NCBI GenBank assembly: GCA_022835595.1
Contig: BQUP01000011.1
Location: forward strand, 191,319-255,318
Origin: Cystobasidium ongulense
Taxonomy: Eukaryota > Basidiomycota > Cystobasidiomycetes > Cystobasidiales > Cystobasidiaceae
Reading direction: 5' to 3'
Length of the DNA: 64,000 nucleotides
A model generated the notes under the pieces. The model had not been told where the DNA came from and searched no databases. It saw only the letters and a list, made by a program, of their open reading frames with translations. Made by a program: the position numbers and the translations under genes. Shown here piece after piece: positions 22,873-24,928 of the stretch. Each line of letters opens with the position of its first letter. Within the stretch, counting starts at the first letter, position 1.

Positions 22873-24928
22873 TCACCGCACTGATAAAGGCGGTTGTACA
22901 AGCGGTATCTGGAGTACATCAAACATGTCGGCCTTGAAAGCAGCAAGATCCGCTGCTGATATATCCTCCTCCTTTGGTATCGAATCAGCATAGTCTATAT
23001 TGACCCCAGAGCCGCCGGTAGGAGCAGGCTGAGCTGATCCTTGACCGAAGGGCGAAGATCCGAAGGCTGGCGCTGATGGCTGTCCAAATGCTGGTGCAAT
23101 TGCACCTGCAGCCGACGCACCGAAAGCACTCGTCTGTGCTGGCTGACCGAAAGCTGGCTTTTGAGATGGTGCGCCAAAGGCTGACTGCGAGGGCTGAGCG
23201 GCCCCGAATGCAGAAGTCTGTCCGAATGCAGAACTCCCGAATGCAGACGTTTGAGCAGCTGGTTTGGCTCCGAAGGCTGAGGTCGAGGTAGCTAATCAGC
23301 CGCGTAATAAATGCAAGGTCGGATCGAGATGCATACCTGATGTATTTGTACTTGGCTGTCCGAATGCCGAAGTCGCGGTATTCTGACCAGGCGAAGAGAA
23401 AGCTCCAAATGTGGATGTCCCGAACGCAGGCTTAGCTGGCGTCGCACTCGCTGCTCCGAACGCGCTGGGCTGTCCGAATGCACTTGTAGATGTAGATGCT
23501 GTAGGCTGCCCGAAGGCACTCGTCGAGTTTGCGGCTTGGCCGAAAGGGGAAGGTTGAGCTGGTGCACTTGAGTTGCCGAACGCCGAGTTTGCCTGAGCTG
23601 GCTGCCCGAATGCCGATGATAAAGGTGCGGAGGCTTGCCCAAACGGTGATGGCACGGTGGATGCGGATCCGAAGGCAGACTGCGCTGGGGCTGCGGCCTT
23701 TCCAAAGGGTGAGCTTGTTGAGGCCCCTCCAGATCCTATTGAGGTGAGTATCTTAGTGCTGAGTGCCTAGCCGTGTGTGCGACTGAGTACCTACCGAAAG
23801 TACCAAAGCCAGTCTTGCCAAATGCTGAGCCTTGCGCAGGTGACCCGGCTACAGGCGCGCCGAAAGCACTGGTCTGTCCAAAGGCAGATTTACCAAACGC
23901 TGAGCCAGAAGCTGCAGGTGACCCAAAAGTGCCAAATCCACTTTTTGCAGCGGGCGCGCTGGTGCCAAATGCGCTTGTTGAAGCTGTGGCAGGTGCACCG
24001 AACGGTTTGCCGCCAAATGCACTTCCACTAGCGGGTGCGCCAAAAGCAGAAGGAGTATTATTGGTGTTTCCAAATGGCCTTGATGAGCCGAATGCTCCTC
24101 CCGCTCCACTGACTTGCCCGAACGCCGACCCTGATGACCCCCCCGCATCCGCCTTTTTTGATTGATTCCGTGCGAATCCTACCGCTTGGTCGAGGTTGTT
24201 GAGAACGTTGTTGTATGCCGTATTGACCTTTTGTGTAAGCATCTCTTCGGGCTGTTGATGACTTTATGGACTCAGTATATTTTTTCGCAATAGGTACGCG
24301 AACTAGCTCACATATAGCGACGGATCATTCGCTTGTTTCGCTTTGTAGTAGGCCAGGCGGAGTTCTTCGGGACTGACGTCTTGGCCGCTTATTAGATTGG
24401 GTTCATATTTTGAAGGACCATAAGAGGAGAAAGGCCATATGGGTTTCTCTGTCGTCAAGTCAGTCCGAATGGTGTTGGCGCTGCAGATAAGACCGTTACT
24501 TGGAAACAGATAATGTTCGGCAGCCAAGCAGAAACATACTCGAATGGAAACACGGTCTTCGCGACAGGCTTGTTGAAGTTGCTTGCAGACTGGGTACCAG
24601 GATGCTCACTATGGTAGGTGTCTCACATTAGTCTTTGCACTTGCATGGTCAATGTGCAAGCGATCGACAAGTGCTCACTTCTGGAAAAGCAAGTTGCGCT
24701 GAATCAGTACTGAATATGTCTATTCGCAGTCCATGTGCACCTACTTTGCAACTGGCGCCGAACTTGCACGCTAAAGGCAAAAGCAATTCAATCAGCTTTT
24801 TGCCCTGGTGGCCATCTCGAATGCAAAGGCTTACCGCCGCGCAGGAAGAATTGGCAGCTGCAAGGGTACGAGACGGTCAGCAGGGAGCATGATAAACTCT
24901 TTCGGCCTAAGCCTGCTTACACTGCCAT
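22873..24928 (-). CDS. CCCH zinc-finger FG-repeat nucleoporin (Nup42/Rip1/Amo1-like)
   Basis: Nuclear pore component of the cytoplasmic face involved in mRNA export in the characterised family. Proposed exons: 24928-24921, 24857-24835, 24770-24745, 24680-24679, 24608-24540, 24480-24312, 24251-23795, 23735-23337 and 23291-22873; 1572 nt, 523 residues. The first four exons (8, 23, 26 and 2 nt) plus the start of exon 5 spell [15 protein letters not shown] followed by ASCKNEHPG, a textbook C-x7-C-x5-C-x3-H finger. A short coiled region (PEEMLTQKVNTAYNNVLNNL) precedes more than thirty FG repeats, mostly SAFG, TSAFG and SPFG. The C-terminal motif is AFKADMFDVLQIPLVQPPL then SVR, matching the conserved end of this family. 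Intron 8 is only 45 nt. Divergent from the gene starting at 25066. Confidence 0.9.
24679..24680 (-). other. Putative 2-nt internal microexon of the Nup42-like gene
   Basis: AA, flanked by a ttttccag acceptor and a gtgagc donor on the minus strand. It supplies the two bases that join TGC-AAA to T-GAG-CAT, reading C-K-N-E-H. The upstream 64-nt intron has a CTGAT branch site about 25 nt before this acceptor, and the downstream intron has CTAAT. Confidence 0.7.

Follow-up and report, generated by a model that had tools for sequence, protein, structure and literature searches.

The minus-strand gene at the centre of this study very probably encodes a Nup42/NUPL2-like nucleoporin of the CCCH/FG type. 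A predicted constitutive internal exon of only two nucleotides, AA (24680-24679), is very probably part of its mRNA. We use the term "window" for the whole 64-kb stretch of DNA that was analysed. A sequence-only reading of the window had proposed this exon. The same exon set was recovered by a model of splice signals and coding sequence that is blind to the protein family, and such a computed result supports the interpretation.

Gene structure and neighbourhood

Re-reading of the sequence between 24928 and 24540 gave exactly the exon coordinates and letters that had been proposed (Table 1), and the first four exons do sum to 59 nt. The coding exons of the predicted gene are 8, 23, 26, 2, 69, 169, 457, 399 and 404 nt long. 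The zinc finger is spread over five exons because the gene starts with an 8-nt exon and has four introns in, or at the end of, its first 59 coding nucleotides.

Table 1. Exons and introns at the 5' end of the predicted nucleoporin gene
Feature	Position in the window	Strand	Details
Exon 1 (coding)	24921..24928	-	8 nt, ATGGCAGT
Intron 1	24858..24920	-	63 nt; GTAAGC..CTGAC..GCAG
Exon 2	24835..24857	-	23 nt
Intron 2	24771..24834	-	64 nt
Exon 3	24745..24770	-	26 nt; last codons TGC AAA, end phase 0
Intron 3	24681..24744	-	64 nt; GTAGGT..CTGAT..CCAG; branch A at 24704, 23 nt from the acceptor
Predicted 2-nt microexon AA	24679..24680	-	bases 1-2 of codon AAT (Asn20); flanks ttttccag and gtgagc
Intron 4	24609..24678	-	70 nt; GTGAGC..CTAAT..ATAG; branch site 19 nt from the acceptor
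Exon 5	24540..24608	-	69 nt; T-GAG-CAT-CCT-GGT...; the finger is finished here
Whole predicted nucleoporin gene	22873..24928	-	9 coding exons; 518 aa

A search of the organism's own genome with the DNA of the gene (E up to 0.001) matched the gene itself and nothing else. Exons 1 and 2 joined as in a retrocopy were looked for with a degenerate pattern (0 matches), and Rfam at gathering thresholds had no matches in 22000-26500.

Three other coding regions were observed nearby. A TMEM135-like gene (25066-27372, plus strand; PF15982, 33.7 bits) lies on the opposite strand from the nucleoporin gene, with 138 nt between its start and the nucleoporin's start codon, so that the two genes have a short shared divergent promoter region. 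A Hop2/TBPIP-like meiotic gene lies at 27682-28710 on the minus strand (PF07106, 66.3 bits); our prediction closes its first intron too soon, and by eye we would place the acceptor at 28475 (ctctcag/TATCTCAAC), which makes the intron 146 nt long and yields EEVLLDYLNKQNRPYN. Downstream of the nucleoporin gene, an open frame at 22518-22697 on the minus strand contains MMTSEASKTWLGYPEPED and LVDVRRSDLT. By eye we take it to be the start of a rhodanese/Cdc25-like protein; a 55-aa fragment of it had no match in Pfam.

The predicted protein

The product, 518 aa long, contains a CCCH finger and, at residue 79, a SPEELRL segment; it ends in a short C-terminal tail, and of its 38 FG dipeptides one falls within the finger. 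The joined exons give CKNEHPG and the finger spacing C-x7-C-x5-C-x3-H, in agreement with the C-K-N-E-H-P-G and C-x3-H of the sequence-only reading. The PF00642 (zf-CCCH) score is 25.9 bits, with a cut-off of 20.5. A finger at the N terminus, FG repeats and a C-terminal tail are all in keeping with the Nup42-like label, which rests in part on an assumed human sequence. Human NUP42 (NUPL2), as we assume its sequence to be, shares the MAxCQFFL-G-C-FG--C-NEHP finger, the SPEELRL segment and the FG repeats. Against this assumed sequence, 16 of 23 finger residues are identical in a gap-free alignment through NEHP, and 23 of 62 are identical, also without gaps, along the SPEELRL segment. The C-terminal tail, where a Gle1-binding motif would be expected, looks by eye like what we take to be the human tail.

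Among solved structures, all seven matches of the product up to E 1 were CPSF4, and the C-terminal tail matched no PDB chain up to E 10; the PDB thus leaves the family unsettled. In the passages covered, a review of the pore links Nup42, Gle1 and Dbp5 to mRNA export and makes no mention of the finger of Nup42 (PMC8421043). The predicted protein, to judge from its sequence, would have its role at the nuclear pore.

A gene model without protein information chooses the exon

Our gene finder combines a coding Markov model, matrices for donors, branch sites and acceptors, and distributions of lengths and branch distances. It has no minimum exon length and uses no protein information; the strands are decoded separately, and genes are kept if they score above 15. 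The first training set, the window plus 200 kb of contig C1, yielded 71 genes with 341 introns, and none of the 71 overlapped another by more than 100 nt. This model returned exactly the exons of the sequence-only reading, the 2-nt exon among them.

The choice did not depend on the presence of the gene in the training data. With the target gene left out (70 genes, 333 introns) the 2-nt exon scored 9.1 nats above the best model without exons shorter than 3 nt. After training on the C1 genes (52 genes, 256 introns) it was chosen in all 10 settings, namely five intron rates, each with and without GC donors, by a margin of 7.9 to 12.3 nats. When C1 alone was used from scratch and the window stayed unseen (50 genes, 258 introns), the exon set was unchanged and the margin was 12.5 nats.

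Several features of the model have to be kept in mind when these margins are read. Introns of 42 to about 112 nt with branch distances between 9 and 40 served as training seeds, and therefore the length and distance statistics are biased to introns of that kind. The 2-nt exon was still chosen with a flat branch-distance prior (margin 5.6 nats) or a flat intron-length prior (5.3 nats). When both priors were flat, the best model retained AA but spliced it past exon 5, from 24678 to 24481, and was only 3.0 nats above models without tiny exons. Thus the choice leans on the usual intron length and branch spacing of this genome. The geometric prior on exon length gives a 2-nt exon about 0.4%, which is perhaps generous; a tenfold lower value would reduce the margin by about 2.3 nats. 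The finder is also imperfect: one intron of the neighbouring Hop2-like gene was mis-joined, as judged by eye.

Alternative joins between exons 3 and 5

The sequence-only reading had argued that exon 3 joined straight to 24608 reads TGC AAA TGA, and this stop is indeed obtained. The same stop removes one candidate that we considered, a stwintron (twin intron) without exon bases, in which all of 24744-24609 would be excised. The further claim that two bases are needed is too strong as a statement about frame. The 33 GT/GC donors and 19 AG acceptors that lie from exon 3 to the end of exon 5 allow 4690 joins with zero to two introns of 30 to 200 nt, and 730 of these are open and in frame. Frame alone, therefore, does not demand the exon. 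What stands is that the two bases have the best signals and the sole CKNEHPG product, and it is this agreement of splice signals and finger that points to AA.

On splice signals the 2-nt join ranks first of the 730 (6.15 nats). The second (-1.27 nats, 7.4 lower) uses a GC donor and deletes the third cysteine, and the third (-1.69 nats) retains intron 3. The spacing C-x7-C-x5-C-x3-H arises from 23 of the 730 joins; the runner-up among these lies 12.8 nats below the 2-nt join and has the AA exon as well, with both outer sites moved by 4 nt. NEHPG occurs in the products of 13 joins, and CKNEHPG in that of the 2-nt join only. GC donors at 24756 and 24738 were considered and rejected.

Two open, in-frame rivals had been absent from the sequence-only reading: the join of 24678 to 24590, which retains intron 3, and the join of 24744 to 24605, which gives CKHPG. 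If intron 3 were kept as coding and the donor at 24678 were joined to the acceptor at 24590, the product would be CKVGAHGLRIDIFSTDSAQLAFPESASNF and there would be no microexon. This join, the third of the 730, has an open frame and offers C-x4-H, and it is the best model without an exon shorter than 3 nt when the target gene is left out of training. We nevertheless consider it very improbable: it falls behind by 7.8 nats on splice signals and by 9.1 nats overall, it loses NEHPG, and it leaves a complete and good intron unspliced.

The finger models bear on this reading and on a second one, in which the acceptor is shifted either to 24605 (TGAG; CKHPG) or to 24699, where a 20-nt exon would encode CKRNLLFQNEHPG. 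Both shifted joins are in frame and open. PF00642 does not discriminate between the versions (25.9 bits for the 2-nt product, 25.7 for TGAG, 26.6 for the 20-nt exon and 25.5 with intron 3 retained), its top score going to the 20-nt exon. Two models that span the histidine favour the 2-nt product over the three rivals, PF18345 with 24.7 bits vs 22.3, 21.5 and 21.3 and PF18044 with 22.2 bits vs 19.4, 19.2 and 19.1, a lead of 2.4 to 3.4 bits among scores that are all under the curated cut-offs; the product with intron 3 retained is lower in both.

Compared with the 2-nt join, the join to 24605 is 15.8 nats worse and the join to 24699 is 11.1 nats worse. The former leaves C-x1-H, and the latter lengthens the Cys-His spacing. 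The sequence-only reading had held the acceptor at 24699, 18 nt upstream, to be too close to the branch site, and our counts agree: it lies 5 nt past the branch A at 24704, and a distance of 6 or less was found in 0 of 333 introns, a zero that is partly built in because the seeds had distances of 9 to 40. Otherwise it would have to use another branch site 27 nt off. Taken together, a shifted acceptor has very little probability in our judgement.

Splice signals and chance

The 2-nt exon would be bounded by two ordinary introns, both of typical length and both equipped with a donor, a branch site and an acceptor of their own. The 333 introns predicted after training without the target gene have a median length of 68 nt and a median branch distance of 20, compared with lengths of 64 and 70 nt and distances of 23 and 19 for introns 3 and 4. 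Their donors stand at percentiles 62 and 56, and the combined acceptor and branch signals at percentiles 83 and 29, the acceptor of intron 4 being under the median. A single intron of 136 nt would be unusual here: only two of the 333 are at least that long.

Of the 275 internal exons predicted in the 71 genes, AA alone has a length of at most 3 nt; two have at most 6 nt and 12 at most 15 nt, those other than AA being unverified predictions. A 5-nt exon TTTGT was predicted on the plus strand at C1:313255-313259, beside a predicted 7-nt exon of the same gene, with a margin of only 3.8 nats.

The interior of the 136-nt stretch was randomised in three ways, with dinucleotide shuffles, interiors of real introns or random pieces of the genome, 2000 each; in the last set, pieces with N were skipped and scored as misses (10 N in the 200 kb). 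The observed score for an in-frame exon of 2, 5 or 8 nt was reached in 0 of 2000 cases under each randomisation. Any weak in-frame candidate of these lengths within the loose limits of the finder appeared in 962, 465 and 912 cases per 2000, respectively. Weak rescues are therefore common in randomised introns, and it is the strength of the sites, not their mere presence, that bears the argument.

These results are relevant to a third rival, an error in the assembly. Two bases could have been lost at the edge of exon 3 or exon 5, and the real gene would then have one intron of about 136 nt and no microexon. A frame break at one junction is the expected result of a small indel, and there is a run of A (TGCAAA) at the end of the junction. 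In that case the 136 nt would hold an acceptor, two fitting bases, a donor and well-placed branch sites by accident, against which stand the 0 of 2000 in all three randomisations and the rarity of introns of such length. An indel is thus a highly unlikely explanation, and the predicted 2-nt exon remains our preferred reading.

Comparison with known ultra-short exons

For most of the papers compared in this section, our statements refer to excerpts. The sequence-only reading had placed a 2-nt exon near the lower limit reported for eukaryotes. Near it is, and the limit itself is lower, as 1-nt exons have been published (PMC4674806, PMC8831610, PMC12940212). AA has the signals of an ultra-short (1-3 nt) microexon, being flanked by an acceptor and a donor that each belong to a full intron.

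The closest fungal parallel is the single-nucleotide exon of Fusarium CYP621A P450 genes, which its authors present as the first in fungi; the exon is backed by 20 Fusarium orthologues (24 genes are also counted), an intronless relative and 18 SRA reads in the excerpts covered (PMC12940212). In both cases a tiny exon of a fungal nuclear gene completes a codon of a conserved motif, and the frame is lost if it is omitted; the Fusarium exon differs in being 1 nt long and from an ascomycete (PMC12940212). In plants, Arabidopsis APC11 has a constitutive single-nucleotide exon (PMC4674806), and 1-nt exons are described in plant APC11 and VPS55 (PMC8831610). Like AA, these ultra-short exons are flanked by two introns (PMC4674806, PMC8831610). 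They have been validated by RT-PCR and RNA-seq and are conserved across land plants, whereas the AA exon is a prediction from sequence.

Longer microexons occur in fungi as well. In the passages covered, the shortest exon is 6 bp in Phanerochaete chrysosporium P450 genes (PMC1184071) and 5 bp in bglA genes of basidiomycetous yeasts (PMC9142197); these genes resemble ours in having many short introns and tiny exons, and AA is shorter than both. For Trichoderma, a functional microexon of 20 nt has been described (PMC11121469). Fungal stwintrons, as the excerpts describe them, also involve two successive splicing reactions in one intervening stretch. In a stwintron one intron sits inside another and interrupts one of its splice signals, whereas introns 3 and 4 are both complete and two nucleotides would stay in the mRNA.

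A literature search by phrase for 2-nt exons found no report. Exons of 2-5 bp in Arabidopsis, Drosophila and human are cited as earlier cases in the covered part of PMC12940212, so that the null search is not proof of none in print. A search of the literature on basidiomycete microexons gave no microexon among the matches listed. By prediction from its sequence, AA would be the first 2-nt exon that we have met in a probable basidiomycete, ultra-short exons being already known as a kind.

A possible splicing mechanism

Introns 3 and 4 may be regarded as short fungal introns of the ordinary type, each of them recognised as a unit by intron definition. Under such recognition the AA exon itself need not be recognised. 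The last base of intron 3 serves as position -3 of the intron 4 donor, and the U1 footprint (-3 to +6) thus shares one base with the 3' splice site upstream. Because of this overlap the two introns can hardly be engaged simultaneously and are probably removed in turn. The intron scores are 10.0 nats for intron 3, 7.2 for intron 4 and 3.9 for the skipping intron, and the donor score of intron 4 rises from 5.86 to 6.45 nats after the removal of intron 3. Removal would then be stepwise and recursive-like, with intron 3 first slightly favoured by the site scores. We infer that the cells splice in AA in sequential order, the two introns not being engaged together.

In the passages covered, the authors of the APC11 study suggest a combination of intron definition and recursive, stepwise removal (PMC4674806). 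The mechanism proposed for AA fits this combined model.

Omission of AA leads to an early stop at codon 20 and retention of intron 4 to a stop at codon 21; retention of intron 3, or of both introns, leads to an early stop further on. All four incomplete products that we translated therefore end in an early stop. One might go further and regard the exon with its two introns as an obligately sequential, recursive-like unit that, owing to the overlap of the U1 and 3' splice-site footprints, works in one order only and is selected as an all-or-none gate on the nucleoporin. We consider this unlikely. If it were true, every incomplete product would stop early and be destroyed, and the output of this export factor would depend on splicing capacity.

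Implications

The predicted exon carries a warning for genome annotation: gene finders that impose a minimum exon length would break the finger. A simple self-trained model that has no such minimum sufficed to find the exon. Two nucleotides can hardly be defined by exon-bound factors, and therefore a 2-nt exon such as the one predicted here would show the reach of intron definition alone.
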